This document shows, piece after piece, positions 1,981-26,417 of a DNA stretch of 31,201 nucleotides (positions are counted from its first letter, which is position 1; each line of letters begins with the position of its first letter). The notes beneath the pieces were generated by a model. That model saw nothing but the letters and a program-made list of their open reading frames with translations, was not told the DNA's origin and searched no databases. Origin of the DNA: a virus. A program made the translations under genes and the position numbers. The stretch lies in the IMG/VR virus record IMGVR_UViG_3300020472_000109, positions 1 to 31,201 of that record. One strand, written 5' to 3'.

Positions 1981-2003
1981 AATGCACAGTTGAATTACTG
2001 CAA
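1981..2003 (-). promoter_or_regulatory. Minus-strand start element, copy 1
   Basis: On the minus strand it reads TTGCAGTAATTCAACTG followed by TGCATT. It lies 16 bases upstream of the ATG at 1964, in a divergent gap with no terminator. This argues that the element is an initiation signal in its own right and not part of a terminator. Confidence 0.6.
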
Positions 2004-2041
2004 AAACAAAAACCTAAACTAAAGAAAGCAGAAAACTTTCA

Positions 2042-2572
2042 ATGGAATCTACAGAACAGCACACCCCAGAAGGTGCCCCTAACCTCGTCCTGATGATGAA
2101 CGAGGCTACACAAGTTGATAGATCAAGTGATATTTGTCAAAAATTAGTCTTGCTTGCGTCATTTGTCAAAGAGCTACAGACGCAATCTCACTTGATTCAT
2201 TTCAACTATGAAGGAAGCAACTTCTTTGAGGTGCATAATTTCTTAAAGGATCAATATGAATTACATCTCGAACAATTTGACAAGTTGGGTGAATTCGTTC
2301 GAATCTTAAATTACTGGATGCCTATGTGTTCTATTGGGCTAAAGGATGCTTTAGGTGGTTGTTTTAAGAATGTGGATTCTTACGAAGGTAATGACATGCT
2401 GAAGGTATATCACGATAACTTGGGAACATTAGAGAATATGTTAAAGATGATTCAACCCGCAGTTGAAGAAGCTTGTCACTATGACGTTGCTAATTACTTA
2501 GCTGAGTTGTTGGGTCAAAGTTGCAAAGCTTCTTGGATGCTGCGAGCTGTCTTAAGGAATTCTATTCAATAA
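2042..2572 (+). CDS. Dps/ferritin-like protein
   Basis: This is a 176-residue, mostly helical protein of the size usual for Dps, the mini-ferritin that oxidises Fe(II) with peroxide, stores iron and can protect DNA. Residues 49-90 align with the Dps ferroxidase region. IHFNYEG corresponds to AHWNMRG, VHNFL to VHEML, and EQFDKLGE to DHLDTMAER. This places candidate iron ligands at His53, His65, Asp80 and Glu84, the full Dps set. Near the C-terminus, DVANYLAELLGQSCKASWMLRA resembles the helix ending in W-(F/M)-L-R-A of Dps. The N-terminal ~30 residues are polar and not strongly basic. The gene is alone on the plus strand, divergent from the gene at 1964 and overlapping the convergent gene at 2566 by 7 bases. 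No clear Shine-Dalgarno is visible. The assignment is from recalled motifs. Confidence 0.72.
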   Translation: MESTEQHTPEGAPNLVLMMNEATQVDRSSDICQKLVLLASFVKELQTQSHLIHFNYEGSNFFEVHNFLKDQYELHLEQFDKLGEFVRILNYWMPMCSIGLKDALGGCFKNVDSYEGNDMLKVYHDNLGTLENMLKMIQPAVEEACHYDVANYLAELLGQSCKASWMLRAVLRNSIQ

Positions 2573-2787
2573 GAGTGGACATCTAAGTGGGCTTCATCTC
2601 TAATTGCATCGACACATGCGGTTTTGCATTCGTTATCACTCGTTGAACATTCGGTAATACATTCAAAGTACTGGTCTACTTCATCTAATTGAGTAGCGTC
2701 TTGAGGTAGCAATTGGTTGCTAGCAATGGTTTGCATTGGCTTGTCTCCTGTGGTTCCGTCGTTGGACTGCTTTCCTTCTGATGCCAT
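2566..2787 (-). CDS. Small acidic protein with paired CX3C motifs (73 aa)
   Basis: This 73-residue acidic protein has four cysteines near the C-terminus in the order C-x3-C, six residues, C-x3-C (FECITECSTSDNECKTACVD). That spacing suggests a helical hairpin held by two disulphides or a small metal site. The N-terminal 40 residues are polar and probably disordered. There is no signal peptide. Its end overlaps the Dps-like gene tail to tail, and a degenerate start element lies about 60 bases upstream. I do not recognise a named family. Confidence 0.65.
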   Translation of the reverse strand: MASEGKQSNDGTTGDKPMQTIASNQLLPQDATQLDEVDQYFECITECSTSDNECKTACVDAIRDEAHLDVHSY

Positions 2788-2845
2788 AAATAATTACAAA
2801 TAGAGAAAACAATCCAATATAGTCTATGAAGTTCATGACGTGAAG

Positions 2846-2867
2846 AAATGTTGAATAATTGTATTAG
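2846..2867 (-). promoter_or_regulatory. Minus-strand start element, degenerate copy
   Basis: On the minus strand it reads CTAATACAATTATTCAACAT, about three mismatches from the core consensus. It lies just past the stop of the DUF2997-like gene and about 60 bases upstream of the ATG at 2787, farther than the other copies. It is the weakest member of the set. Confidence 0.35.
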
Positions 2868-2869
2868 GG

Positions 2870-3085
2870 CTATGATTGTGGGCTTAGATGCTCTGTCTGT
2901 TGTTTCACCTGAGGGAGATCACAAGGCTTGTAGTAGTCAGGTTTGTACTTAGTCTGAGTAACTGTACCTAGTTCCCTTTCTACATTCTTAGTGATCTCTG
3001 TGCATTGGTTGCAACTCACACCAATGACTTCCTCTTGAACAGTTCCATCTGTTCTAATGGTGAATTTGATTTGTTGTTGTTTCAT
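2870..3085 (-). CDS. DUF2997-like small protein (71 aa)
   Basis: The N-terminal 50 residues fit DUF2997: a strand pair (IKFTIRTDGTVQEEVIGV), then a Cys-x2-Cys (SCNQCTEITKNVERELG) and an amphipathic helix, then a YKPDYY tail. In cyanobacteria small proteins of this family are often found next to ycf35 (DUF1257) genes. The function is unknown, and no DUF1257 partner is visible here. The start codon overlaps the stop of the upstream gene by 4 bases, so it is the last gene of the overlapping operon that starts at 5296. The last ~20 residues are polar. Confidence 0.65.
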   Translation of the reverse strand: MKQQQIKFTIRTDGTVQEEVIGVSCNQCTEITKNVERELGTVTQTKYKPDYYKPCDLPQVKQQTEHLSPQS

Positions 3086-3366
3086 GGAACCAATGCTTGA
3101 ACTTCTATATTCTTCTTATCTTTATTCATAACTTGAATACATTGAATCTCTGTACATGCTTCAGAAAGTTTTAAGACTTTCATGTTTCCTCCTTTACCTT
3201 TTACGAATAGGTAGGAACGGATCTTAGGATCCATTGACCATTCTTCTTGAGGTGCTTTAGAAGGAATCCAAGCATGGAATTCATTGTTGTCGATTGATAC
3301 TTTAACGCCAACTCCTTCTCTAAGAAGAGAGGTTGTGTGTGTTGCGTTGTTGTTCCATTGAGTCAT
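3082..3366 (-). CDS. Hypothetical protein (94 aa) in overlapping operon
   Basis: I do not recognise this 94-residue soluble protein. It looks beta-rich (VGVKVSIDNNEFHAWIP, then IRSYLFVKGKG and NIEVQALVP at the end) and carries two cysteines in ACTEIQCIQV. It overlaps the upstream gene by 47 bases and the downstream DUF2997-like gene by 4 bases, so translation is probably coupled. Upstream bases (AGAGAAGG region inside the preceding gene) give no clear ribosome site. Confidence 0.6.
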   Translation of the reverse strand: MTQWNNNATHTTSLLREGVGVKVSIDNNEFHAWIPSKAPQEEWSMDPKIRSYLFVKGKGGNMKVLKLSEACTEIQCIQVMNKDKKNIEVQALVP

Positions 3367-3529
3367 TTTGGCACTGAATGTTGTAGGAATCTAAGGTGTA
3401 TGGGGGTGGATAGTCGTGTTTAGGTGGCCATGCTTCCGTGTACTCCACTAATGTCTTAGTGGTCGTCTGAAAGAATGGCCATTTCTTACTGAACAAGAAA
3501 GATAATTCGAAAACCTTACGACTTTCCAT
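3320..3529 (-). CDS. Hypothetical protein (69 aa) in overlapping operon
   Basis: This is a small protein with an aromatic, basic N-terminal half (FELSFLFSKKWPFFQTTTK) and a proline/tyrosine-rich middle (WPPKHDYPPPYTLDSYN). No domain is recognised. The stop of the upstream gene is 3 bases before its ATG, and its last 47 bases are shared with the next gene in another frame. The position between two credible genes supports it being real, although the C-terminal polar residues may only be a consequence of the overlap. Confidence 0.5.
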   Translation of the reverse strand: MESRKVFELSFLFSKKWPFFQTTTKTLVEYTEAWPPKHDYPPPYTLDSYNIQCQNDSMEQQRNTHNLSS

Positions 3530-3532
3530 TAA

Positions 3533-4213
3533 TTATTCGTCAATAACGTTCTCATCTTGCACTTGAGACTTCATGTAGTCAACATATGCAATACCAACAG
3601 AGGTCACATGTTTCTGAATCGTGTCCTGACGGATTGGTTCTCTACAGCCAAGCCTGCCTGCTGCATAGATCTGACCGTTGACATACATATCAAGTAGTCT
3701 CTTGAAATGTGGATCTAATTGTTCACCTGCTTCACGTACTCGTTGTGCATGTTCTGTCTCATTGCGAGCCACTTTCTTCCGAACTGATGGAGCTCTGACG
3801 CCAGCTCTAGGGATCCGACCTCTTATAGGTTGAGATTCAACGATATTGTCAGAGTCTTTCCATCCATCTTCGGGCATGTTTGTAATGAACGGATAATCTT
3901 CTTGTATCTCCTGCTCGCCAGTGGATGTGAAGTCGAATAGTAAGAACGTTGCTTTATATTGTTCATTCCATTCTGTTCTAGTGGTGTAATTGAACCCTTC
4001 GATTGGGGTTCCGTTGAGACTGAATGGTGTGCCTTGCTTGACGAAGTCTTTGACTGCTTCTGGAAAGCAGACGGTGCATTCTCCTCCTTGGGAGGTTCTG
4101 GAGTTGTAGTAGGCATAGTAGATCTTATCTTCCCTTGCCCCTTCTCTGGTGCTGAGCTTGGGGTTGGAGGTGAAGATGTGGATCTTTGCGGGGGATTGAG
4201 TGGACTGAGCCAT
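3533..4213 (-). CDS. Hypothetical protein (226 aa)
   Basis: This 226-residue soluble protein has an N-terminal beta-rich part (KIYYAYYNSRTSQGGECTVC, ATFLLFDFTSTGEQE), a basic linker with RIPRAGVRAPSVRKKVARNE, and a helical C-terminal part (LDPHFKRLLDMYVNGQIYAA). The basic middle suggests nucleic-acid contact, but no family is recognised. Its first 390 bases are also open in the frame of the upstream gene. Its own N-terminal sequence looks protein-like, so this frame is probably the main coding frame there. Confidence 0.68.
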   Translation of the reverse strand: MAQSTQSPAKIHIFTSNPKLSTREGAREDKIYYAYYNSRTSQGGECTVCFPEAVKDFVKQGTPFSLNGTPIEGFNYTTRTEWNEQYKATFLLFDFTSTGEQEIQEDYPFITNMPEDGWKDSDNIVESQPIRGRIPRAGVRAPSVRKKVARNETEHAQRVREAGEQLDPHFKRLLDMYVNGQIYAAGRLGCREPIRQDTIQKHVTSVGIAYVDYMKSQVQDENVIDE

Positions 4214-4410
4214 TTGATTTGATAGGTAGAGGGAATAAAGGTATCGACAATCAGATTAATATCCTCGAGAGGATGCGTAACTGATTGACCGATAAGAAGC
4301 TCTGGAAATAATTGTGGGAAGAATTTAAGAGCTTGTTCTGAAACTGGAGTTAGAGTGACATCGCCAACTCCTTTGTTGTTAATGACAAAGAAGTCGTACT
4401 GATCACTCAT
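3823..4410 (-). CDS. Hypothetical protein (195 aa) with long overlap
   Basis: The first ~68 residues (MSDQYDFFVINNKGVGDVTL onward to about YQIKWLSPL) look like a compact real domain. The start overlaps the stop of the Gp157-like gene by 4 bases. The remaining ~130 residues are Ser/Thr/Pro/Lys-rich and lie entirely inside the 226-aa gene in another frame. Either the protein has a long disordered tail encoded by overprinting, or the N-terminal domain is joined to the 226-aa frame by a -1 frameshift. No stop codon separates the alternatives. The N-terminal part is well supported, the tail is not. Confidence 0.5.
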   Translation of the reverse strand: MSDQYDFFVINNKGVGDVTLTPVSEQALKFFPQLFPELLIGQSVTHPLEDINLIVDTFIPSTYQIKWLSPLNPPQRSTSSPPTPSSAPEKGQGKIRSTMPTTTPEPPKEENAPSAFQKQSKTSSSKAHHSVSTEPQSKGSITPLEQNGMNNIKQRSYYSTSHPLASRRYKKIIRSLQTCPKMDGKTLTISLNLNL

Positions 4411-5069
4411 TTAATCCACCAGTCTCTCTTTTGTAATAGTTGGACACCATCGATTTGTAGGTCTTTCTCCTGTATTGCTTTCTTTAAAGCTGTCTTATTT
4501 GGACGAACAGATATCGTCTTATATTCATCTGGTAGTGAATCAATATCACATATATGTTCATCTATATCCACTGTAGGATTACCCATTCGAGATCGTATGG
4601 AGTGAAAAGGTAGTTCGAATTTTGTCTCAGGTTGAAACAAGATACGAACAAAACTAATCACCATAGATTTGATACGTTTAGCTCTGTTGATTCCTGGTTT
4701 TACCAGCTTTATCAATCTATCAGCTTCTGCTTGCCTAGCGGCTGCTTCTGCTTCTAGACGGAAAGCATAGTTCAGTAGATCTGTGGCTTTGGTCTTAAAG
4801 TTCTCTTTATCTCTAAGGTAAACTTCTATTTGCTCAACAGCAGCTATTACTTCTGCTGGGTTGTCACTCTCTAGATTCTCAATAGCAGTATCAATAGATC
4901 TCAGGGATTCCTGAAGTTTGATAGCTAGTTCGAATGAGTTGAGACGGTGCTTCAAGTTTTGGGAGAGACCCTTCGTAGTACTCACTGGAGTAGAGGGTGA
5001 GGCAGTAGTTACCTGCGTCGATTTCACAGTCGAATTGCTCGACCCATTTGAGGTTCGTTTGGAGGTCAT
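4407..5069 (-). CDS. Gp157-like (siphovirus Gp157) family protein
   Basis: The protein is 220 residues long. After a Ser/Thr-rich N-terminus it has a long helical, coiled-coil-like part (about 40-130, including AFRLEAEAAARQAEADRLIK). The C-terminal part follows the Gp157 pattern: FELPFHSIRSRMGNPTVDID, then SLPDEYKTISVRPNKTALKK and AIQEKDLQIDGVQLLQKRDW. In that family a beta segment containing a P-x-V-x-(I/V)-D and a P-x-x-(Y/F) precede K-x-x-(I/L)-K-x-A-I. The biochemical role is not settled; an association with phage resistance and DNA metabolism has been suggested. Its first ~60 codons overlap the 96-aa gene, and the low-complexity N-terminus may reflect this. A later start is possible. Confidence 0.72.
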   Translation of the reverse strand: MTSKRTSNGSSNSTVKSTQVTTASPSTPVSTTKGLSQNLKHRLNSFELAIKLQESLRSIDTAIENLESDNPAEVIAAVEQIEVYLRDKENFKTKATDLLNYAFRLEAEAAARQAEADRLIKLVKPGINRAKRIKSMVISFVRILFQPETKFELPFHSIRSRMGNPTVDIDEHICDIDSLPDEYKTISVRPNKTALKKAIQEKDLQIDGVQLLQKRDWWIK

Positions 5070-5181
5070 GAATCAAAAGGCGTTTGTAATCGCCACGAAA
5101 TGGAATAATGTTATAACGATCTTCAGGATTTAAGTAATCTCCCGTTAATCGTATTGATGATGTTGTTAATCTTTCGCTCAT
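4891..5181 (-). CDS. Hypothetical protein (96 aa) in overlapping operon
   Basis: I choose the internal ATG at 5181 (MSERLTTSSIRLTGDYLNPE) because the upstream extension is low-quality and shared with the preceding gene. The product is 96 residues with many aromatics (EDRYNIIPFRGDYKRLLI, NYCLTLYSSEYYEG) and looks like a folded small domain. It overlaps the gene before it by 59 bases and the Gp157-like gene by 179 bases. No family is recognised. The protein-like C-terminal sequence inside the overlap suggests this frame carries the stronger constraint there. Confidence 0.5.
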   Translation of the reverse strand: MSERLTTSSIRLTGDYLNPEDRYNIIPFRGDYKRLLIHDLQTNLKWVEQFDCEIDAGNYCLTLYSSEYYEGSLPKLEAPSQLIRTSYQTSGIPEIY

Positions 5182-5296
5182 TTGAGGTGTCACCTGTGGG
5201 TATGGTTGTCTGCGCTGTCTTAATGGCAGCAAGAAGTTCAGACAAGTATTGAAGGCGTGAACGATCCGTAGAAGTGTTATAGACATGTAAATTCAT
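5123..5296 (-). CDS. Small hypothetical protein (57 aa), first gene of overlapping operon
   Basis: The start at 5296 (MNLHVYNTSTDRSRLQYLSE) is chosen because a variant of the conserved start element abuts it. The longer frame from 5335 would begin upstream of that element. The product is a short helical polar protein (LQYLSELLAAIKTAQTTIP, NNIINTINGRLLKS). It opens a run of eight genes read on the minus strand, in which nearly every junction overlaps. No family is recognised. Confidence 0.5.
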   Translation of the reverse strand: MNLHVYNTSTDRSRLQYLSELLAAIKTAQTTIPTGDTSNERKINNIINTINGRLLKS

Positions 5297-5305
5297 ATGA
5301 ATTAG
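5284..5305 (-). promoter_or_regulatory. Minus-strand start element, variant at overlapping operon
   Basis: On the minus strand it reads CTAATTCATATGAATT then TACATG, like the consensus with a one-base deletion. The ATG at 5296 lies within it. It fits the position expected for the start of the eight-gene operon. Confidence 0.4.
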
Positions 5306-5341
5306 AGATGCCTGTAAATGATGCCGCATATACAACTAGTT

Positions 5342-5388
5342 GGGTAGACCCAGGAATTACATGTCAGAAATCTGACACGACCTAGGTC
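5342..5388 (-). terminator. Cluster of three perfect palindromes, terminator or operator
   Basis: Three inverted repeats lie within 47 bases: GGGTAGACCC (5342-5351), TGTCAGAAATCTGACA (5362-5377) and GACCTAGGTC (5379-5388). They sit between the end of the gene at 5395-5811 and the operon starting at 5296. By analogy with the other intergenic gaps they may terminate the upstream unit, but the T-run on the minus strand is poor. A protein-binding operator for the operon is the alternative. Confidence 0.4.
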
Positions 5389-5394
5389 ATTTAG

Positions 5395-5811
5395 TTAAGC
5401 CGTGGCTGTTTCTACGTCAGGAGTGACATTAGTCATGGTTGGATTCATTTCTAAATCCAGTTTTTGACGTCGTAGTTCACTCTCTTTCTCGTTGATACTT
5501 CTGAGCTTTGCTCGAGCTGCTAACTCTTGAGCAGAGTAGGTAATCTTCTGTTGATTACCATTCTCATCAGTACCCCAACCAATAGACTTGGCTGTGTATG
5601 TTTGACCGTCTTGAACGATCGAATCACCTGGTTCTTCATTGGCGATGAATTCTGCCAAGGTGTCTGATCTTGCTCCGACAGTGACGGAATCTTCCATACA
5701 GGCTTGGGAGTTCCTGTTACGGTTGAAACCGACAGTGATTAGACCTGATTTACTAAAGACATTTGGCCTTATAAAGAAGGAAAATGACTTAGTACCTAGG
5801 TAAAGGGTCAT
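5395..5811 (-). CDS. Hypothetical protein (138 aa)
   Basis: This soluble 138-residue protein has a hydrophobic beta-like N-terminus (LYLGTKSFSFFIRP, SGLITVGFNRN), a central acidic part (ANEEPGDSIVQDGQTYTAKS) and a helical charged C-terminal part (AQELAARAKLRSINEKESEL). The last residues are Thr/Val-rich. No family is recognised. It is divergent from the plus-strand gene at 5927. The conserved start element lies 48 bases upstream of the ATG, the longest spacing among the good copies. Confidence 0.65.
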   Translation of the reverse strand: MTLYLGTKSFSFFIRPNVFSKSGLITVGFNRNRNSQACMEDSVTVGARSDTLAEFIANEEPGDSIVQDGQTYTAKSIGWGTDENGNQQKITYSAQELAARAKLRSINEKESELRRQKLDLEMNPTMTNVTPDVETATA

Positions 5812-5859
5812 AAGCGTGTGGTTGTGGACAGTACAGACCTAAAGCAACAACACAAATAA

Positions 5860-5882
5860 ATGCATTATTGAATTAAGTCAAT
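5860..5882 (-). promoter_or_regulatory. Minus-strand start element, copy in divergent gap
   Basis: On the minus strand it reads ATTGACTTAATTCAATAATG then CATT. It lies in the divergent gap between 5811 and 5927, again without a terminator beside it. Confidence 0.6.
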
Positions 5883-5926
5883 AAAAAAGACCCTAATATA
5901 TAGGTAATATCTCAATTGTTGAATAC

Positions 5927-6493
5927 ATGCTCGGACGTTATAAAGCTGCAGACCAAGCTGTTCAAAACTTCTTATTGAATCAAGGTCGTAAGATTGATAA
6001 CTTATCGGCTGGCGTCAAAGATGCTAAGACTGAAAGGGTTATTGCTAACTTAGCGGCGATCCAAAATAAGGATCCGAAAGTGGCTTTACAGGATTTAGCA
6101 ACTGGAATGGCTTCTAAGCGTTCGTTGAATCCTGTCTATCAATTCAGTGAGGAAGGCGTAGGAGTTGCAGAAGCTTTGCAAAATAAAATAAAGGTAGGAG
6201 ATGCTCGTTCTATTAGGGATAATCTTGGAGATGTTGCTAGTGCTAGGGGTCGTGTACTAGATCCAGCAGCTAATCTGCTTGGGTTACTCGGCGGAAGAAA
6301 ACCAGGAACTGATTTCGTAGCTGCTGACAGGATTAGTAATGCGGGGAGGTATGGTCAAGCAGCAAGAGCTGGTGTAGCGGGGGTAGCAGGAGGTTCAGCT
6401 TTGACTGCAGCCGGTTCGGGATTAATAGATCTCATGGCCTACATTCAAAGTAGTAACGAGCAGATATCAGAGAGGGCTGATCAGTTAGCATGA
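5927..6493 (+). CDS. Putative virion protein with glycine-zipper segment (188 aa)
   Basis: This 188-residue protein has a helical N-terminal part (AVQNFLLNQGRKIDNLSAGV) and a glycine/alanine-rich hydrophobic stretch near the C-terminus (AGVAGVAGGSALTAAGSGLI, about 155-175) that could insert in or cross a membrane. It resembles in style the glycine-zipper proteins of the plus-strand late block (15093, 17776, 19129, 25764), so I infer a virion or ejection-type role. With the gene at 6490, which it overlaps by 4 bases, it forms a two-gene plus-strand island inside the minus block. No named family is recognised. Confidence 0.65.
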   Translation: MLGRYKAADQAVQNFLLNQGRKIDNLSAGVKDAKTERVIANLAAIQNKDPKVALQDLATGMASKRSLNPVYQFSEEGVGVAEALQNKIKVGDARSIRDNLGDVASARGRVLDPAANLLGLLGGRKPGTDFVAADRISNAGRYGQAARAGVAGVAGGSALTAAGSGLIDLMAYIQSSNEQISERADQLA

Positions 6494-6720
6494 TCAATCA
6501 ACCCATCATGAAAGAATTAAGGTTCGCAGGAGACATGTTCGATTTAGATGTGAGAGAGGGTTTGAAGGATAATAATTTGGATAGCTTGCGTCGAAGTTTT
6601 CGACGAGACAAGTTGATGCCGTCTTTGTATAAGACGTTTAACGAAATGTCTCCTGAAAATAGCGAACCAGAATATACCATGTCAGGTAGTTATCAGCCCG
6701 AAGTGGCTTATGGTTTGTAG
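6490..6720 (+). CDS. Small hypothetical protein (76 aa), paired with 5927 gene
   Basis: The start codon overlaps the stop of the glycine-zipper gene (ATGATC junction), which implies translational coupling. The product is polar and charged (FDLDVREGLKDNNLDSLRRS), has no membrane segment, and ends in VAYGL, a short aromatic/hydrophobic ending similar to several late proteins. It is convergent with the gene at 6724, only 3 bases away. The function is unknown. A minus-strand frame over the same bases is judged a shadow. Confidence 0.6.
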   Translation: MINQPIMKELRFAGDMFDLDVREGLKDNNLDSLRRSFRRDKLMPSLYKTFNEMSPENSEPEYTMSGSYQPEVAYGL

Positions 6721-6723
6721 TTA

Positions 6724-7128
6724 CTACTTAGCTTTCTTAAAGAAGGTTCCGTCGATAGCTTGATAGCGACCACCTTTGGTCTTGCCGACCCAGTAGTCTT
6801 CCTTTCTAAAGCTATACAGGAACTCGATAAATTTCATAAATGGTCGGTTCTGTTTCTGCTTAGCCCATTTCTCGTAGCTAGCGGCTGTCTTCTTAATGAA
6901 GAAGAGAAAACGGACGACAGAAGGGAGCAGTCTATGACATAACTCTTTAGTGAAGCGACCCATGAAATAACAGACAAATAAAGCTTGGGTTGAAACTTGC
7001 AAGAAAGATTCCTTGAAGTTTTCATACCTAGTATTAGTGTCATAGTAAGAAGGATCGTAGTCAACCAATTCACCAGGCTGATCTTGAAATTCTTTGACTG
7101 TCATGGTTGTATCTAATGAATAGGACAT
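6724..7128 (-). CDS. Hypothetical protein with hydrophobic segment (134 aa)
   Basis: This 134-residue protein has an acidic tyrosine-rich N-terminal part (PGELVDYDPSYYDTNTRYEN), a hydrophobic central stretch (QVSTQALFVCYFMGRFTKEL, then LLPSVVRFLFFIKK) that may be membrane-associated, and a basic aromatic C-terminus (YWVGKTKGGRYQAIDGTFFK). No family is recognised. The start element and an upstream terminator lie just before it, so it is a stand-alone cassette. Confidence 0.62.
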   Translation of the reverse strand: MSYSLDTTMTVKEFQDQPGELVDYDPSYYDTNTRYENFKESFLQVSTQALFVCYFMGRFTKELCHRLLPSVVRFLFFIKKTAASYEKWAKQKQNRPFMKFIEFLYSFRKEDYWVGKTKGGRYQAIDGTFFKKAK

Positions 7129-7146
7129 GTGTGTAAAAACGAAGGA

Positions 7147-7168
7147 CGCACTATTGGATTAGTGCAAT
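7147..7168 (-). promoter_or_regulatory. Minus-strand start element with perfect 7-bp arms
   Basis: On the minus strand it reads ATTGCACTAATCCAATAGTG then CG. Arms TGCACTA/TAGTGCG give a near-perfect inverted repeat. It follows the terminator at 7175-7194 directly and lies 18 bases before the ATG at 7128. Confidence 0.62.
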
Positions 7169-7174
7169 AAAAAA

Positions 7175-7194
7175 GCCCCACCCGAAGGTGGAGC
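7175..7194 (-). terminator. Intrinsic terminator (minus strand)
   Basis: The hairpin CCACC-CGAA-GGTGG (7178-7191), with GC flanks, is followed on the minus strand by six T. It ends the two-gene unit 7715-7202. Confidence 0.85.
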
Positions 7195-7201
7195 TGATTA
7201 C

Positions 7202-7378
7202 CTATATATGGGACTCGTTTAGAGTGTCGTCTTCCATTAGACAGCTTGCGGCATAGCCTTCTCTATCTGGAATCTCATCCTCCTCATACAGACTGGTAGT
7301 TAGGTGGGTACCTATCATTTGAGTCTTATGAGGGTTGATCTTCTTAGGAAGACCTTCAAGTCCACGTTTGTCACTCAT
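7202..7378 (-). CDS. Small acidic hypothetical protein (58 aa)
   Basis: The frame starts at the ATG at 7378, which overlaps the last bases of the 114-aa gene, and runs 58 codons to TAG at 7202, a few bases before the terminator. The product starts MSDKRGLEGLPKKINPHKTQ and is acidic in its second half (YEEDEIPDREGYAASCLMED). There is no membrane segment. The overlap, the terminator just after the stop, and the absence of any other gene in this gap support it. No family is recognised. Confidence 0.55.
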   Translation of the reverse strand: MSDKRGLEGLPKKINPHKTQMIGTHLTTSLYEEDEIPDREGYAASCLMEDDTLNESHI

Positions 7379-7715
7379 GATCGTTGTCCTCTTTTAGTGA
7401 TGAGTACTCAAGTTCCTTCTCTTTACGCTTAAGCCTCTCCTCTAGTAGAGCATTAGCTTGAGCGTCGTTGTCCAGATAATCTTTGAGTTTCTTATCAGCT
7501 TCGACTGCACGTTTGTTAGCTTTCAATCTGTCCTCATCCGCATGTCGCAGATGAAATCCAATACCGTTGACTAGATCTCGATGAATCTTGTCTAACTTTG
7601 TGGAATTAGAGAGATGTAAAACATGTATCAGTTCTAAAGCTTCTTCTGAGGTTAGACCACCGATAAAGATGTCTGAAGTAAACATCTTTGGTTCTGGCTG
7701 ATCAGGGTAATCCAT
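7371..7715 (-). CDS. Hypothetical helical protein (114 aa)
   Basis: This is a 114-residue, charged, largely helical protein. After an N-terminal hydrophobic turn (SDIFIGGLTSEEALELIHVL) it has a coiled-coil-like C-terminal half (RLKANKRAVEADKKLKDYLD, ALLEERLKRKEKELEYS). It begins right at the start element (ATG directly after it) and is followed by the overlapping 58-aa gene. The function is unknown. Confidence 0.62.
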   Translation of the reverse strand: MDYPDQPEPKMFTSDIFIGGLTSEEALELIHVLHLSNSTKLDKIHRDLVNGIGFHLRHADEDRLKANKRAVEADKKLKDYLDNDAQANALLEERLKRKEKELEYSSLKEDNDHE

Positions 7716-7736
7716 GGAATATTGAATTAGGACAGT
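7716..7736 (-). promoter_or_regulatory. Minus-strand start element abutting ATG
   Basis: On the minus strand it reads ACTGTCCTAATTCAATATTC then C, directly followed by the ATG at 7715. If transcription starts inside or after the element, the mRNA would be leaderless or nearly so. Confidence 0.58.
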
Positions 7737-7740
7737 AAAA

Positions 7741-7768
7741 AGCCCACCCAGTCGAAACCAGATGGGCT
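7741..7768 (-). terminator. Intrinsic terminator (minus strand)
   Basis: Arms AGCCCA (7741-7746) and TGGGCT (7763-7768) are followed on the minus strand by five T. It lies 8 bases after the stop of the 148-aa gene. Confidence 0.8.
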
Positions 7769-7775
7769 GATGATA

Positions 7776-8222
7776 CTACTTAGTAGCTGATGAGCGAGTC
7801 TCATCGTTAAGAACTTCATAGCTCTTAACTCTTAGTTGCTTGCGGGTGCACTTAAGATAACCGCCAGTTAACTCAGGGTTGGCAGCAGGTACCCAGAAAC
7901 CTTTTAAGGCAACTTTGACCCACTTACCTTCACCTGTATGCTTGGTTTGTAAAGCAAGTAACTCAGTGGCTAGCTTCACACCATTGTCACTGGCAATAAA
8001 GTTATCACCAGGTAGATCAATAGATGTAGGCATGCCATTGAATGTATCTTTACATCCGATGCTAAGGAATCCTCTAACCTGATACTTGGCATCAGGACCT
8101 TGACCAATAAACTCTTGAGTTCCTCTTAATATGCCAACGATCTTGACATCATCGTCATATTTAGCGGCTGTTGTAGCAGCTTTGGTGGTTGCTTTTGGAG
8201 CCTTAGTAGCAGAAGCAGTCAT
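7776..8222 (-). CDS. Hypothetical protein with Ala/Thr/Lys-rich N-terminus (148 aa)
   Basis: I choose the ATG at 8222 (MTASATKAPKATTKAATTAA) because the longer frame would begin with a GTG inside the start element. After a 22-residue Ala/Thr/Lys tail, the body looks beta-rich: DVKIVGILRGTQEFIGQGPD, YQVRGFLSIGC, KWVKVALKGFWVPA, RKQLRVKSYEVL. The alternation and length would fit a small OB-like fold, but I cannot demonstrate it. A basic tail on a beta-rich body suggests nucleic-acid binding as an inference only. It is a single-gene cassette between two terminators. Confidence 0.62.
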   Translation of the reverse strand: MTASATKAPKATTKAATTAAKYDDDVKIVGILRGTQEFIGQGPDAKYQVRGFLSIGCKDTFNGMPTSIDLPGDNFIASDNGVKLATELLALQTKHTGEGKWVKVALKGFWVPAANPELTGGYLKCTRKQLRVKSYEVLNDETRSSATK

Positions 8223-8245
8223 GAATAGAGTAAGTAAACAACAAA

Positions 8246-8269
8246 AATGCACTATTGGATTAGTGCAAT
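8246..8269 (-). promoter_or_regulatory. Minus-strand start element with perfect inverted repeat
   Basis: On the minus strand it reads TATTGCACTAATCCAATAGT then GCATT. Arms TGCACTA and TAGTGCA are a perfect 7-bp inverted repeat. It lies directly after the terminator at 8276-8293 and 23 bases before the ATG at 8222. Confidence 0.62.
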
Positions 8270-8275
8270 AAAAAA

Positions 8276-8293
8276 CCCCACCTTGCGGCGGGG
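8276..8293 (-). terminator. Intrinsic terminator (minus strand)
   Basis: CCCCACC-TTGC-GGCGGGG forms a 7-bp stem with one mismatch. On the minus strand six T follow. It lies 6 bases past the end of the SLOG-like gene. Confidence 0.85.
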
Positions 8294-8299
8294 AAAGAT

Positions 8300-8842
8300 T
8301 TATAGGAGATTTAAATATTGAAGGATACTTTCAAGCATGGCATCATCGCCAAGGTTCTTGATAGGGATCTTCATTCTTTGTGCAATCCTCAAGGCTTGAC
8401 CGGTTCCTCCTTCTACCATCCCTCCAGGGGTATAAGCAATAACCATAGCGGAGGGGGAACTAAGATCAGGACCTAGAACTTGCATAGCATTTCTGGCCAT
8501 CAAATGTTTAGCCCCCGGCTTCAGCCCATGTGGCTTGGGATGGAATTCTTCGACTGAAGCTCGTGCTTTGGGAGAAGCTGGCAAGGATTGATAATTAATG
8601 AACTGTGGTTGGGATTTAGAAACAACGCGGTTGTTAAAGCCTGACCAAGGTAGGAATATTTGGGACGTAGCCGGTTGTCTCACGCCGACCTCGAAGGCCG
8701 TATCGGCACCTTCTGCACCGCCCGACCTAAGACGTAGACCCTGACCCTCTAATCTCTGCGCCAAAAGGCTCATGATTTCGAGGATATGATCAGGAGTTGA
8801 TCTAGAACCTATACCTGCGTAATAACGTGTCATAATCTTCAT
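8300..8842 (-). CDS. SLOG/DprA-like Rossmann-fold protein (180 aa)
   Basis: From the ATG at 8842 the product reads MKIMTRYYAGIGSRSTPDHI. It has the hallmarks of the SLOG superfamily (DprA, LOG and YpsA relatives): an N-terminal Y-x-G-I-G-S-R strand-turn, LRLRSGGAEGADTAFEVG (nucleotide-binding glycine-rich loop, about residues 34-51), FLPWSGFNNR, ARNAMQVLG, and a C-terminal SAMVIAYTPGGMVEGGTGQA followed by LRIAQRMKIPIKNL. Such domains bind nucleotides or nucleic acids; DprA loads RecA, and others sense NAD-derived or related molecules. The exact role in this phage is unknown. A longer frame to 8962 runs backward through the start element and is not believed. It is a single-gene cassette. Confidence 0.8.
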   Translation of the reverse strand: MKIMTRYYAGIGSRSTPDHILEIMSLLAQRLEGQGLRLRSGGAEGADTAFEVGVRQPATSQIFLPWSGFNNRVVSKSQPQFINYQSLPASPKARASVEEFHPKPHGLKPGAKHLMARNAMQVLGPDLSSPSAMVIAYTPGGMVEGGTGQALRIAQRMKIPIKNLGDDAMLESILQYLNLL

Positions 8843-8850
8843 TCTAAATA

Positions 8851-8875
8851 AAATGCAGCATTGAAATACTGCAAG
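8851..8875 (-). promoter_or_regulatory. Minus-strand start element upstream of SLOG gene
   Basis: On the minus strand it reads CTTGCAGTATTTCAATGCTG then CATTT. It lies 8 bases before the ATG at 8842. A GC-rich stretch with a T run precedes it, but there is no clean hairpin. Confidence 0.6.
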
Positions 8876-8942
8876 AAAAAGCCGACCGACCTGCAAGACA
8901 GACCGACCGGAAGCGTAGTTAAAGCGGTTAGTACTGATGTAC

Positions 8943-9095
8943 TTACATAGACAGACAAGCAATATCTAGGACATGCTTGGGATTACTTGGGTGAAGAATA
9001 ACTTCAAGGAGAAAGGCTTCGCTTTCAGCATCTTCTTCACTCTTATGGAAGCTAGAAAACTTCCCATCCAAGATGACCACCCAGAGACTTTCCAT
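8943..9095 (-). CDS. Small hypothetical protein (50 aa)
   Basis: This minus frame starts at the ATG at 9095, one base after the start element, and ends with TAA at 8943. The product begins MESLWVVILDGKFSSFHKSE and continues with an acidic helix (EDAESEAFLLEVILHPSNPK). It fills the gap between the SLOG cassette and the next terminator exactly as a cassette gene should. A plus-strand frame of 76 codons over the same bases is considered the shadow. The function is unknown. Confidence 0.58.
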   Translation of the reverse strand: MESLWVVILDGKFSSFHKSEEDAESEAFLLEVILHPSNPKHVLDIACLSM

Positions 9096-9096
9096 G

Positions 9097-9119
9097 AATG
9101 CATAATTGAATTACTGCAA
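9097..9119 (-). promoter_or_regulatory. Minus-strand start element of 50-aa gene
   Basis: On the minus strand it reads TTGCAGTAATTCAATTATGC then ATT. It directly follows a terminator and ends one base before the ATG at 9095. Confidence 0.62.
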
Positions 9120-9126
9120 GAAAAAA

Positions 9127-9154
9127 CCCCCACCCAGACAAAATCTGAGCAGGG
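9127..9154 (-). terminator. Intrinsic terminator (minus strand)
   Basis: Outer arms CCCC/GGGG and inner CAGA/TCTG form a bulged hairpin, followed by six T on the minus strand. It ends the unit of the 68-aa membrane protein. Confidence 0.75.
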
Positions 9155-9162
9155 GATATGGG

Positions 9163-9369
9163 TTACTTACCAGTGTAATAACCATTCTCTCCGCAGAATT
9201 TAATCAAGGCAGCTTGATCTACTCTTGGCTGACCACTCAAGTATTCAACGCCAGAGCATTGAACTTGGGTAGAGGCTGTTAAACCAGTAACCAACTGGGT
9301 AACAAGCATTATTCCTCCAAGAGTAAAAGAAAAGACACAGAGAGGATAGAGAAACGCAGGAGTTTTCAT
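9163..9369 (-). CDS. Small membrane or exported protein (68 aa)
   Basis: The preferred start is the ATG at 9369 (MKTPAFLYPLCVFSFTLGGI). An alternative ATG three codons upstream lies inside the start element. Residues about 5-28 form one hydrophobic segment (FLYPLCVFSFTLGGIMLVTQ) preceded by one lysine, compatible with a transmembrane helix or signal peptide. The rest is short and polar, with two cysteines (VQCSGVEYLSG, LIKFCGENGYY) that could pair outside the cytoplasm. The function is unknown; small membrane proteins of this type are common in cyanophage accessory regions. Confidence 0.62.
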   Translation of the reverse strand: MKTPAFLYPLCVFSFTLGGIMLVTQLVTGLTASTQVQCSGVEYLSGQPRVDQAALIKFCGENGYYTGK

Positions 9370-9370
9370 G

Positions 9371-9395
9371 AAATGCATTATTGAATTAGAACAAT
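9371..9395 (-). promoter_or_regulatory. Minus-strand start element abutting ATG
   Basis: On the minus strand it reads ATTGTTCTAATTCAATAATG then CATTT, one base before the ATG at 9369. The element itself contains an in-frame ATG (ATGCAT). Confidence 0.62.
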
Positions 9396-9400
9396 AAAAA

Positions 9401-9432
9401 TCCCCCGATCATAAGGCTGACCAGGGGATCGG
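9401..9432 (-). terminator. Intrinsic terminator (minus strand)
   Basis: Two alternative stems, TCCCC/GGGGA and CCGATC/GATCGG, precede a five-T run on the minus strand. It lies 8 bases after the stop of the 72-aa gene. Confidence 0.65.
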
Positions 9433-9439
9433 AGGTTTC

Positions 9440-9658
9440 CTACGCCGTAGCAAACACTCGAGCTTTAGAAAGAGACTTCTTAGCTTTAAAGTGAGCGCGA
9501 GCGGTAGCGACGTCGCGAACGCAGCATTGACCATAGATCTTATTACGAGGCTTATCACTTAAAGGAAGGTAATGAATCCTCGCTAGATCTCTGGCTTGAC
9601 AGATTTCATACACTATCTCTACAGTTGGGAACTTAATAGTGTGTGTAGTGAAATTCAT
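9440..9658 (-). CDS. Small basic hypothetical protein (72 aa)
   Basis: Starting at the ATG at 9658 (MNFTTHTIKFPTVEIVYEIC), this 72-residue protein is basic, especially toward the C-terminus (ATARAHFKAKKSLSKARVFA), and has three cysteines, two adjacent (GQCCVRDV). There is no membrane segment. It is the first minus gene left of the central non-coding region. The ATG follows the start element directly. No family is recognised. Confidence 0.6.
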   Translation of the reverse strand: MNFTTHTIKFPTVEIVYEICQARDLARIHYLPLSDKPRNKIYGQCCVRDVATARAHFKAKKSLSKARVFATA

Positions 9659-9659
9659 G

Positions 9660-9684
9660 AAATGCATTATTGAATTAGTACATT
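9660..9684 (-). promoter_or_regulatory. Minus-strand start element at edge of central region
   Basis: On the minus strand it reads AATGTACTAATTCAATAATG then CATTT. It lies one base before the ATG at 9658 and has no terminator behind it. Confidence 0.62.
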
Positions 9685-9801
9685 AACATCGCACTAACAT
9701 AACTTGTTGCATTGACTACTGAAAGTAGCTATATTTGTCTCCTAATAACGTTATAAGTAGGCGATCCTGTTACATATCAACTAAGGGACCTAAGATGCGA
9801 G

Positions 9802-9928
9802 CACTAAGCGAACGTTAGTGAGCGCAAGGGTGAGGTTAAAAGAAGCGAACAAAGTGAGCGTCGAGCTCGTTTACAAAGTAAACATGAGCGAGTCGATATT
9901 AACGAGTGAGCGAAGCGAACGAGAGTGA
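9802..9928. repeat. Iteron-like GCGAAC...AGTGAGCG repeats
   Basis: Copies: GCGAACGTTAGTGAGCG (9808-9824), GCGAACAAAGTGAGCG (9845-9860) and a partial GCGAACGAGAGTGA (9915-9928). The starts are 37 and 70 bases apart, close to one and two units of ~35. The first copy also forms CACTAA/TTAGTG arms (9802-9820). Single GAGCG or GCGAG words continue to about 10140. Confidence 0.6.
9861..9896. other. Extended stem-loop
   Basis: Nested arms TCGA, GCTC and GTTTAC surround an AAA loop and are matched by GTAAAC, GAGC and TCGA on the other side, with small bulges. No T run follows, so a terminator is unlikely. It lies directly after the second repeat copy. Confidence 0.6.
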
Positions 9929-10140
9929 AAGAGCAACAGTAACGAGAGATAGCCTAGCTTGTCATTAGATCTGGTCCCCGAGAGAGAGCGAAGAGGAGAG
10001 GCGTGGGAAACGCGCTATGTATGCGTCAGTGTGTGGGATAGCTGTTGCTAACTCAGGATCGCATGGGAATCAATAGTAGTAACTAAAGTTAACTATGGAT
10101 AACACCCTTGAAGCGAGCGGCTATGAAGAGCGAGCGCATA

Positions 10141-10155
10141 CTTTTGTGACAAAAG
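10141..10155. promoter_or_regulatory. Perfect palindrome, possible operator
   Basis: CTTTTGT-G-ACAAAAG is a perfect 15-base inverted repeat with 7-base arms, the shape of a dimeric regulator site. No regulator can be matched to it from the sequence. Confidence 0.45.
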
Positions 10156-10444
10156 AAAAGAACGCGGCGCAATATTCGTTCTATTAATTAACAAATAACT
10201 AACATCACTCTTCTGCGCACTAACATACGCGTCAACATATCGATCGCGTTGCTTCTCTTATGTGTATCTTTTTTTTGTCTGAGCGGGACCAGACCTAGCG
10301 GCGGGTGTTTAATGTATAACGCGCTGAGCAGAATTTTTCGCAATTCTCCCGCGAGGCCCATCGATAGGGAATAAAACGCTTCATCGTGAAAGCACGCTTG
10401 CTATTTCGCGGCATAATGAAATAACAAAAGCTTTCGCCCTATAG

Positions 10445-11089
10445 ATGGATAAGGAGTCTCTTAAAAAATATCGTTTTTTTCAGGACGTCGAGTCGTTCTC
10501 TGCTAGAAAAACACCTTTGTATTTGACTTACGACTTTCCTGAATATGAACGTGTCAATAAAAATTTAAAAAAATTCATTATTTACAATTTGCATAATGAC
10601 GTCCTAGGTGAGGCAAAGAGAACCGCATTTAATCTTCATCGCTTAAATAATCAGCTACACCCTGCTGTTAGACAAATTTTGCAGTTTTTACATGACAATC
10701 TGCAAGATGTCGCCGTGCAATTTGCTATAGGAGAAGATAGCAACACAACTATGGAAAGAAGAAAAAATGATTTGAATTGGAATTGGCAAGATATAGGATT
10801 AGCTGAATGTTGGGGTATTTATTACGACAAAGGCCAAGGAGTTATTACCCATAATCATTTCCCTTTTACCCTTAGTTTTTGTTATTGCGTTAGTGCTCCT
10901 GAAGGGTCGGCCCCTTTAATACTTAATGACTATGAAGGTAAAGATGTAAAGCTATATCCAAAGGAAGGTCGATTAACAATATTCCTAGCATCTACTTGGC
11001 ATCGAGTTTGTCCTAATGATCAAAAAGCGGATGGCAGATGTTCCTTAGTAGGTAATTATGTATACGCACCAAGATTCATACAAGCGTAA
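10445..11089 (+). CDS. 2-oxoglutarate/Fe(II) oxygenase-like protein (214 aa)
   Basis: The C-terminal half shows the phage 2OG-Fe(II) oxygenase pattern. ECWGIYYDKGQGVITHNHFP places His136 and His138 as candidate metal ligands, LSFCYCVSAPEGSAPLIL forms the next strands, and RLTIFLASTWHRVCPN gives the distal His186. Arg198 in DGRCSLVGNY is the expected 2-oxoglutarate salt-bridge residue. Such enzymes hydroxylate or otherwise oxidise a substrate using O2 and 2-oxoglutarate; the substrate is unknown. The usual HxD is replaced by HxH, as in the other two copies in this window. It is the first plus-strand gene right of the central region and is AT-rich. No clear Shine-Dalgarno is seen. Confidence 0.75.
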   Translation: MDKESLKKYRFFQDVESFSARKTPLYLTYDFPEYERVNKNLKKFIIYNLHNDVLGEAKRTAFNLHRLNNQLHPAVRQILQFLHDNLQDVAVQFAIGEDSNTTMERRKNDLNWNWQDIGLAECWGIYYDKGQGVITHNHFPFTLSFCYCVSAPEGSAPLILNDYEGKDVKLYPKEGRLTIFLASTWHRVCPNDQKADGRCSLVGNYVYAPRFIQA

Positions 11090-13684: not shown

Positions 13685-13896
13685 AGAAAAAAATGATTGA
13701 GATCACTCCAGAGTTAATGAGGAGGCATACCGAGCAAGGTTATGCATTATTAGATTGCTTGATTAATGAGAGAGGTTTTGATCCTGTATCCGTTGTAATT
13801 TTATCAACCTTAATATTTAACACTCACACGTGGCTACTTCATCAACATGTCTTAAAAACTGGAAAGTTACAAGGTATAGAATTAAGAGATGAATAA
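13681..13896 (+). CDS. Small hypothetical protein (71 aa)
   Basis: The ATG overlaps the stop of the 655-aa gene by 4 bases and has a good Shine-Dalgarno (GGGAGG about 9 bases upstream). The product is basic at the N-terminus (MKKKMIEITPELMRRH), then has a moderately hydrophobic stretch (VSVVILSTLIFNTHTWLL, about 36-53) that could be a buried helix or weak membrane segment. The function is unknown. It overlaps the tiny Cys-rich gene at 13889. Confidence 0.6.
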   Translation: MKKKMIEITPELMRRHTEQGYALLDCLINERGFDPVSVVILSTLIFNTHTWLLHQHVLKTGKLQGIELRDE

Positions 13897-25763: not shown

Positions 25764-26417
25764 ATGAAGGGTATCAGGAAAGCAGAACCAAGATTAATGC
25801 AAGCTCTTGGTATGACAGCAGGAGGAGTCGGAGGAGCTGCGATTGCTAATAGGATGCTGCATGATGATATGGATAAGATTGTCGATCAATACAACGAATT
25901 TAGTAATGAATACGATCAAATAACACAACAAATGCCAAGAGTTGGAAGTGCTTACGAGCATATTGCCAAACAAGGTCCATTTGGATTGATTGATGGTTAT
26001 GGAATATTGGAAATATTGAAAGGAAAGACGCAAGTTAGCAATTACCAAGATCTCACCTCTGAAGATTATCAAGAAAACCCAGTATTGAGACATGCCGTAG
26101 CCGCTACAACTATCGCTGAAAAATTAACGCCTGAAGAAAGTGTGGCACTACAATATTTATTCAATAAAGAGTTAGAGCTGATGGGAGCAGAGAGGATGGC
26201 GGAATTTGACAATCCAGGAACTAGTTACGACTCTCGGACGGTTGTACAGGCTTCCGAAGCAGGAGAAGGTACTAACCCCTACGCTGTAGGAGCAGGAGCT
26301 GGAGTAGGTGCTGGATTAATGGGTGTAGCAATGACGAAAGGCAGTGAGAATCTAATCAATGCTTTAGGCGTCAAGGATATTAAGGTATCTCCACGTCGTC
26401 CTATAAAAGTACGCTAA
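25764..26417 (+). CDS. Virion-type protein with two glycine zippers (217 aa)
   Basis: A GGAGG site precedes the ATG. The product has a short glycine-rich hydrophobic segment near the N-terminus (GMTAGGVGGAAIANRML, about 16-32), a charged helical middle (DDMDKIVDQYNEFSNEYDQI, AEKLTPEESVALQYLFN), and a second segment near the C-terminus (AVGAGAGVGAGLMGVAMTKG, about 175-195) before a basic end (VSPRRPIKVR). Two hydrophobic ends around a helical middle could span a membrane twice. It lies between terL and portal, where I know no standard gene of this type. Confidence 0.6.
   Translation: MKGIRKAEPRLMQALGMTAGGVGGAAIANRMLHDDMDKIVDQYNEFSNEYDQITQQMPRVGSAYEHIAKQGPFGLIDGYGILEILKGKTQVSNYQDLTSEDYQENPVLRHAVAATTIAEKLTPEESVALQYLFNKELELMGAERMAEFDNPGTSYDSRTVVQASEAGEGTNPYAVGAGAGVGAGLMGVAMTKGSENLINALGVKDIKVSPRRPIKVR

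Follow-up and report, generated by a model that had tools for sequence, protein, structure and literature searches.

Promoters of single-subunit RNA polymerases such as those of T7 and Syn5 are contiguous, directional blocks of about 20–23 bp that occur in many copies. Cluster K mycobacteriophages have SAS and ESAS elements; the SAS is a 13-bp asymmetric repeat located at start codons, has a Shine-Dalgarno-like GGAG core (GGGATAGGAGCCC) and has been proposed to act in translation initiation, with its function unproven (PMC3203893). T4-type phages carry PeSL (promoter early - stem loop) modules, which combine a terminator stem-loop with a promoter and, in the account given in PMC4503421, shuffle gene cassettes (Arbiol 2010; Comeau 2014, both as cited there).

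The DNA analyzed here (the window) is a 31.2-kb IMG/VR virus record. Plus-strand genes, including the terminase, extend from position 10445 onward, and what reads from the sequence as a psbA (D1) gene lies near the end; the other side (before 10445) consists of small, mostly minus-strand genes. Synechococcus phage S-EIV1 is the sole close isolate, with 52% identity in the large terminase subunit (TerL); the other isolates listed share less than 25%, and many relatives in IMG/VR reach 76–91%. We read eight of these relatives (G001–G008, 54–85 kb; G002 without its last 539 bases) together with S-EIV1. The contig ends of G003 match over 114 bases. The window and its relatives constitute an uncultured S-EIV1-related cyanophage lineage. 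A Pfam survey of the G002 contig returned a VapE-like primase/helicase and no DNA polymerase family; S-EIV1 has a family A polymerase.

A first-pass annotation of the window had described a conserved element, in nine good minus-strand copies and two weak ones, at the start of nearly every minus-strand transcription unit. The copies that we retain, with the terminators and repeats adjoining them, are as follows.

9682–9700, minus strand, pair of ATGTTAGT-like repeats spaced by an 11-bp period, immediately ahead of the outermost element and repeated in several relatives
9661–9683, minus strand, element copy 1, outermost, without an upstream terminator; ATG at 9658
9399–9430, minus strand, intrinsic terminator of the upstream cassette, its T-run running into copy 2
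9372–9394, minus strand, element copy 2; ATG at 9369
9127–9155, minus strand, intrinsic terminator joined to copy 3
9097–9119, minus strand, element copy 3; ATG at 9095
8882–8910, minus strand, intrinsic terminator joined to copy 4
8852–8874, minus strand, element copy 4, preceding a DprA-like gene; ATG at 8842
8276–8293, minus strand, intrinsic terminator joined to copy 5
8246–8268, minus strand, element copy 5, with near-perfect arms TGCACTA/TAGTGCA; ATG at 8222
7741–7768, minus strand, intrinsic terminator joined to copy 6
7713–7735, minus strand, element copy 6, with the start codon (ATG at 7715) inside the element; low matrix score, supported by context
7174–7195, minus strand, intrinsic terminator joined to copy 7
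7145–7167, minus strand, element copy 7; ATG at 7128
5859–5881, minus strand, element copy 8, in a divergent gap; ATG at 5811
1981–2003, minus strand, element copy 9, in a divergent gap facing a Dps-like gene; ATG at 1964; top match to the cross-phage matrix

An 18-nt core with up to three mismatches matches the window six times, against 0.04 expected by chance. When a matrix built from other phages only was run over both strands of the window, eight of the nine copies took ranks 1–6, 8 and 9, with rank 7 falling at an unrelated position (19449); the scores at ranks 8 and 9 (9.0 and 7.4) are by themselves no better than chance. The ninth copy (7713–7735) scores only −1.1, yet the terminator, the T-run and the start codon are all present. 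We accept all nine good copies as real. The weak copies at 2846 and 5284 were rejected (matrix scores of −7.7 and below −25, respectively), and the gene at 2787 has a sigma-70-like pair upstream instead (2844–2816). The distance from the core to the first start codon is 1–50 nt. Six of the nine copies stand right behind a terminator, while those at 9661, 5859 and 1981 do not. The earlier observation is largely, though not fully, confirmed, and its interpretation is partly supported.

Further ATGTTAGT-like repeats occur at 10198–10226 of the window and in the relatives G006 (56368–56400 and 56780–56800), G002 (59858–59877) and G007 (13782–13812). They are spaced by 11 or 21 bp and lie around the non-coding gap that separates the structural genes from the cassette cluster; they are possibly a regulator site or a replication origin. 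Positions 9700–10440 of the window form a non-coding stretch of about 700 nt in which many short, imperfect GCGAACGAGAGTGA-like repeats can be seen by eye.

Using matrices built with each genome left out in turn, the element was found in seven relatives of 56–85 kb. The 128 distinct copies share the consensus (T5)nn-TG-Y-M-C-nnnn-TTCARCAGTGCATT, and the logo of 95 curated sites reads T5-nn-TG-Y-M-C-nnn(n)-TTCA-R-CAGTGCATT. Lineage variants occur behind terminators, namely TGTACCTTTTCATCAGTACTTT in G002, GTGCACTCACTCAGCAGTGCATT in G003 and TTGCACTCATATAACAGTGCATT in G006. The consensus does contain the arms noted in the first-pass annotation (TG..C / G..CA), but in most individual copies they pair imperfectly. 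In the leave-one-genome-out scans, strong matches fall in one region and on one strand in 14/14 cases in G001, 12/12 in G004, 11/11 in G005, 15/16 in both G003 and G007, and 9/11 in G002. The refuting condition set initially, a lack of further copies in the rest of the genome, had an intermediate outcome: the relatives hold many copies, nearly all of them in one cluster. The strict form of the motif matches only 21 stretches in the viral collection, several of them these same relatives. No convincing copy is present in S-EIV1 or in the fragment G008, and the element is absent from the other loci with a Dps-like homologue. Among the matches listed for bacterial genomes, the strict motif is scattered over phyla at about chance level, and a host origin was rejected on that ground. 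A literature search with the motif strings returned no relevant paper. Across the genomes compared, the element is a property of the phage lineage and not of a single genome. No part of the window matches Rfam at gathering score, and only chance-level matches were obtained around the elements; in another phage contig, the minus strand of L133:11984–12020 matches the abiF RNA family (abortive-infection associated RNA).

An intrinsic terminator lies directly upstream of 94 of the 128 copies (73%), compared with 2.8% of random positions. The T-run is partly kept in 14 of 30 copies that have no terminator (2 at a control position), so the element seems to make use of the terminator T-run as well. 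Within 75 nt, 92% of copies are followed by an ORF that starts with ATG, which is true of 27% of random positions; a Shine-Dalgarno sequence precedes none of 87 such element-led starts, as opposed to 23% of other genes. Start codons lie 1–8 or 17–28 nt past the core and rarely between, with 48, 4 and 34 starts in three successive 8-nt bins (n = 86); the nominal value of 1e-10 for this pattern is too strong because related phages are not independent samples, but the bimodality recurs in unlike genomes. The simplest reading would be that the RNA has a constant 5′ end close to where the element ends on the right, which would make messages either leaderless or equipped with a workable leader, though the bimodality may also have arisen in some other way. 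Of the long leaders, 52% contain a complement of the right arm, against 13% in shuffles, which suggests that this arm is transcribed; in that case the transcript start would move upstream.

The element looks promoter-like but resembles no known promoter. It was originally described as a single block without separated −35 and −10 boxes, and indeed no −35/−10 pair fits: the conserved columns leave these boxes no room, and TAnnnT is depleted inside the element (28 occurrences versus 50.8 in shuffles). Host sigma-70 promoters have a TATAAT-like −10 box, usually with a −35 box at 16–18 bp, and the element has no such arrangement, so it should not be recognized by host polymerase on its own. On the opposite strand, a TAMAAT box similar to a sigma-70 −10 box is conserved ahead of the Dps-like gene, upstream of window position 2042 and in its homologues (L127–L132 and L137); start signals in these phages are therefore of two kinds or more.

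The first-pass annotation favored a promoter for a phage-encoded RNA polymerase, or an activator site. Promoters of single-subunit phage polymerases are similar in size and contiguity, and the element varies between phages while being coherent within each. The relatives, however, contain no single-subunit RNA polymerase detectable with PF00940 or with a home-made T7/Syn5/P-SSP7 profile, although all four controls (T7, Syn5, P-SSP7 and the split enzyme of N4) were matched. They also lack a two-barrel DxDGD polymerase candidate of plausible size and any unassigned conserved ORF of polymerase size, leaving this explanation very improbable and close to refuted. Searches for sigma-70 regions 2 and 4 gave nothing above cut-off, and no activator gene was recognized. 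A phylogenetic profile for proteins conserved in phages with the element and absent from S-EIV1 yielded mostly replication, nucleotide-metabolism and virion proteins and no candidate regulator; a small trans factor may be the reader. The element could instead be an operator, bound by a dimeric regulator from either host or phage and overlapping promoters that we do not recognize. The partial dyad TGYMC(Y)-N8-(R)GTRCA, which keeps the same center across phages with differing arms, fits this idea, but no sigma-70 promoter is visible near most copies, the center and right half are asymmetrically conserved in a constant orientation relative to the gene, and the ORF survey of G002 contains no RNA polymerase, sigma factor or DNA-binding regulator among the matches listed. 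We regard an operator as unlikely.

The main rival is an element that acts at the RNA level. Longer RNAs would arise from ordinary promoters, read partly through the terminators and be cut at the U-run, and the element would cap the resulting mRNAs at their 5′ end, controlling stability or translation without a Shine-Dalgarno sequence. Because half of the long leaders carry the right-arm complement, we keep such a role as a serious competitor. It is also consistent with column −6/9, where C-G, U-G and U-A occur but never C-A, with the conserved repeats upstream of the outermost copy, which could mark the real promoter, with somewhat more TAnnnT 5–16 nt upstream of terminator-less copies (35% versus 12–21%, n = 34), and with the presence, between genes of the sister lineage, of a true RNA pseudoknot (see below). 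The dyad, however, shows little covariation: paired cells amount to 75.2% against 72.5% when shuffled, and the covariation score of 0.182 compares with 0.134 for shuffles and 0.170 when the frame is slid by −2. Both strands fold equally well, and the case for an RNA hairpin of the element is weak. Transcription would also have to pass as many as ten strong terminators in succession, and copies open units in divergent gaps too. We regard an RNA-level element as possible, though less likely than a promoter.

Nearly identical genomes differ in their cassettes. At about 96% identity between G003 and G004, some cassettes of one are absent or replaced in the other. Both ends of the differing cassettes fall within terminator-element modules, and in one place a single module of the shorter genome corresponds to two modules of the longer in the alignment. 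Cassettes present in only one of L157 and L176 are likewise bounded by such modules, and L128/L131 are compatible with breakpoints there. Cassettes are thus gained, lost or swapped, with breakpoints inside the module.

All of the sequence evidence fits an element that is promoter-like, opens most minus-strand units and is separate from the terminator. We give roughly even odds to the explanation in which the element is the cassette start signal within a composite terminator-promoter module of a hypervariable region, with a core that is not sigma-70-like. Transcription of one cassette would end, and that of the next begin, within about 60 bp. The start would probably lie at ..GTGC|ATT or close to it, within the right end of the element, so that mRNAs would be leaderless or have a 16–25-nt leader; host RNA polymerase would read the element with the help of a host or phage factor, and homologous recombination between modules would shuffle the cassettes. 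Recombination alone, without any reader in trans, could also homogenize the copies. A bolder proposal, which we advance tentatively, is that the element represents its own promoter class without −10 and −35 boxes, to which host RNA polymerase is redirected via a factor so as to transcribe leaderless or short-leader cassettes, and that the fused module is also the site of recombination through which the gene set stays fluid. If a cassette start signal is the correct explanation, the gene-regulation code of an uncultured cyanophage lineage becomes readable, and sequence alone is enough to locate the start of every cassette. It also raises the question of what reads a non-sigma-70 promoter where no phage polymerase or sigma factor is found.

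While seeking the element in S-EIV1, we came upon a widespread 26-nt H-type RNA pseudoknot, NGUC-CYRRGYAU-GACN′-YUAAAC-URCY, that was not found in the window. It occurs on the minus strand of S-EIV1 (L007) at 25920, 29170, 30514, 33603, 38810 and 39529, at position 43013 of the S-EIV1 record, in Staphylococcus phage B166 (L487:1201–1226), in L488, L489, L490 and L492, and at about 160 IMG/VR loci (L297–L460). Hosts of these phages include cyanobacteria, Staphylococcus, Lactobacillus, Mycobacterium, Arthrobacter and Paracoccus. Both stems covary strongly in a set of 20 hand-picked rows (0.46 versus 0.16 shuffled, 0/500); owing to that selection, an analysis of 165 distinct copies, with the outer pair unscored, is the fairer count. 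In the latter set, column 9–23 has U-G 41 times and C-A 5 times, which marks the pseudoknot as RNA. Its most frequent location is 5–6 nt past a stop codon and 21–30 nt ahead of the next gene, or near a tRNA. No Rfam family matched in the stretches searched, and there is no sign of selection for read-through; it might block RNA decay in the 5′→3′ direction or cause a pause at the stop codon. The pseudoknot stands outside the finding in the window and may be the larger discovery.

Compared with known systems, the element is like T7 and Syn5 promoters in size, contiguity, direction and copy number, but its copies are confined to one region and the relatives searched have no such polymerase gene. 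Like SAS/ESAS, it occurs in many co-oriented copies that precede some of the non-structural genes at a very short distance from the start codon, with imperfect inverted repeats and a lineage-specific consensus; it differs in being one 23-nt block that is coupled to a terminator, with a Shine-Dalgarno sequence at 0/87 starts. In arrangement it resembles PeSL modules as PMC4503421 describes them: those place a stem-loop terminator and a promoter between the small genes of a hypervariable region, and the terminators and putative promoters of the present lineage are placed likewise. In that description the stem-loop is joined to the promoter, and here a terminator is joined to the putative promoter element in 94/128 copies. 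The promoter of the PeSL modules described is a host-like sigma-70 early promoter, while the element has no −35/−10 pair and is depleted in TAnnnT; almost all genes of the cluster carry the element here, unlike what that source portrays for PeSL; and the hosts of PeSL are T4-type phages, whereas the present lineage is a different one, with a TerL nearest to that of S-EIV1 (52%) and with relatives of 80–85 kb. In both systems, shuffled cassettes are bounded by the modules, as seen here in G003/G004 and L157/L176. If our explanation is correct, this lineage provides an independent case, outside the T4-type phages, of terminator-promoter modules serving as gene-shuffling joints.
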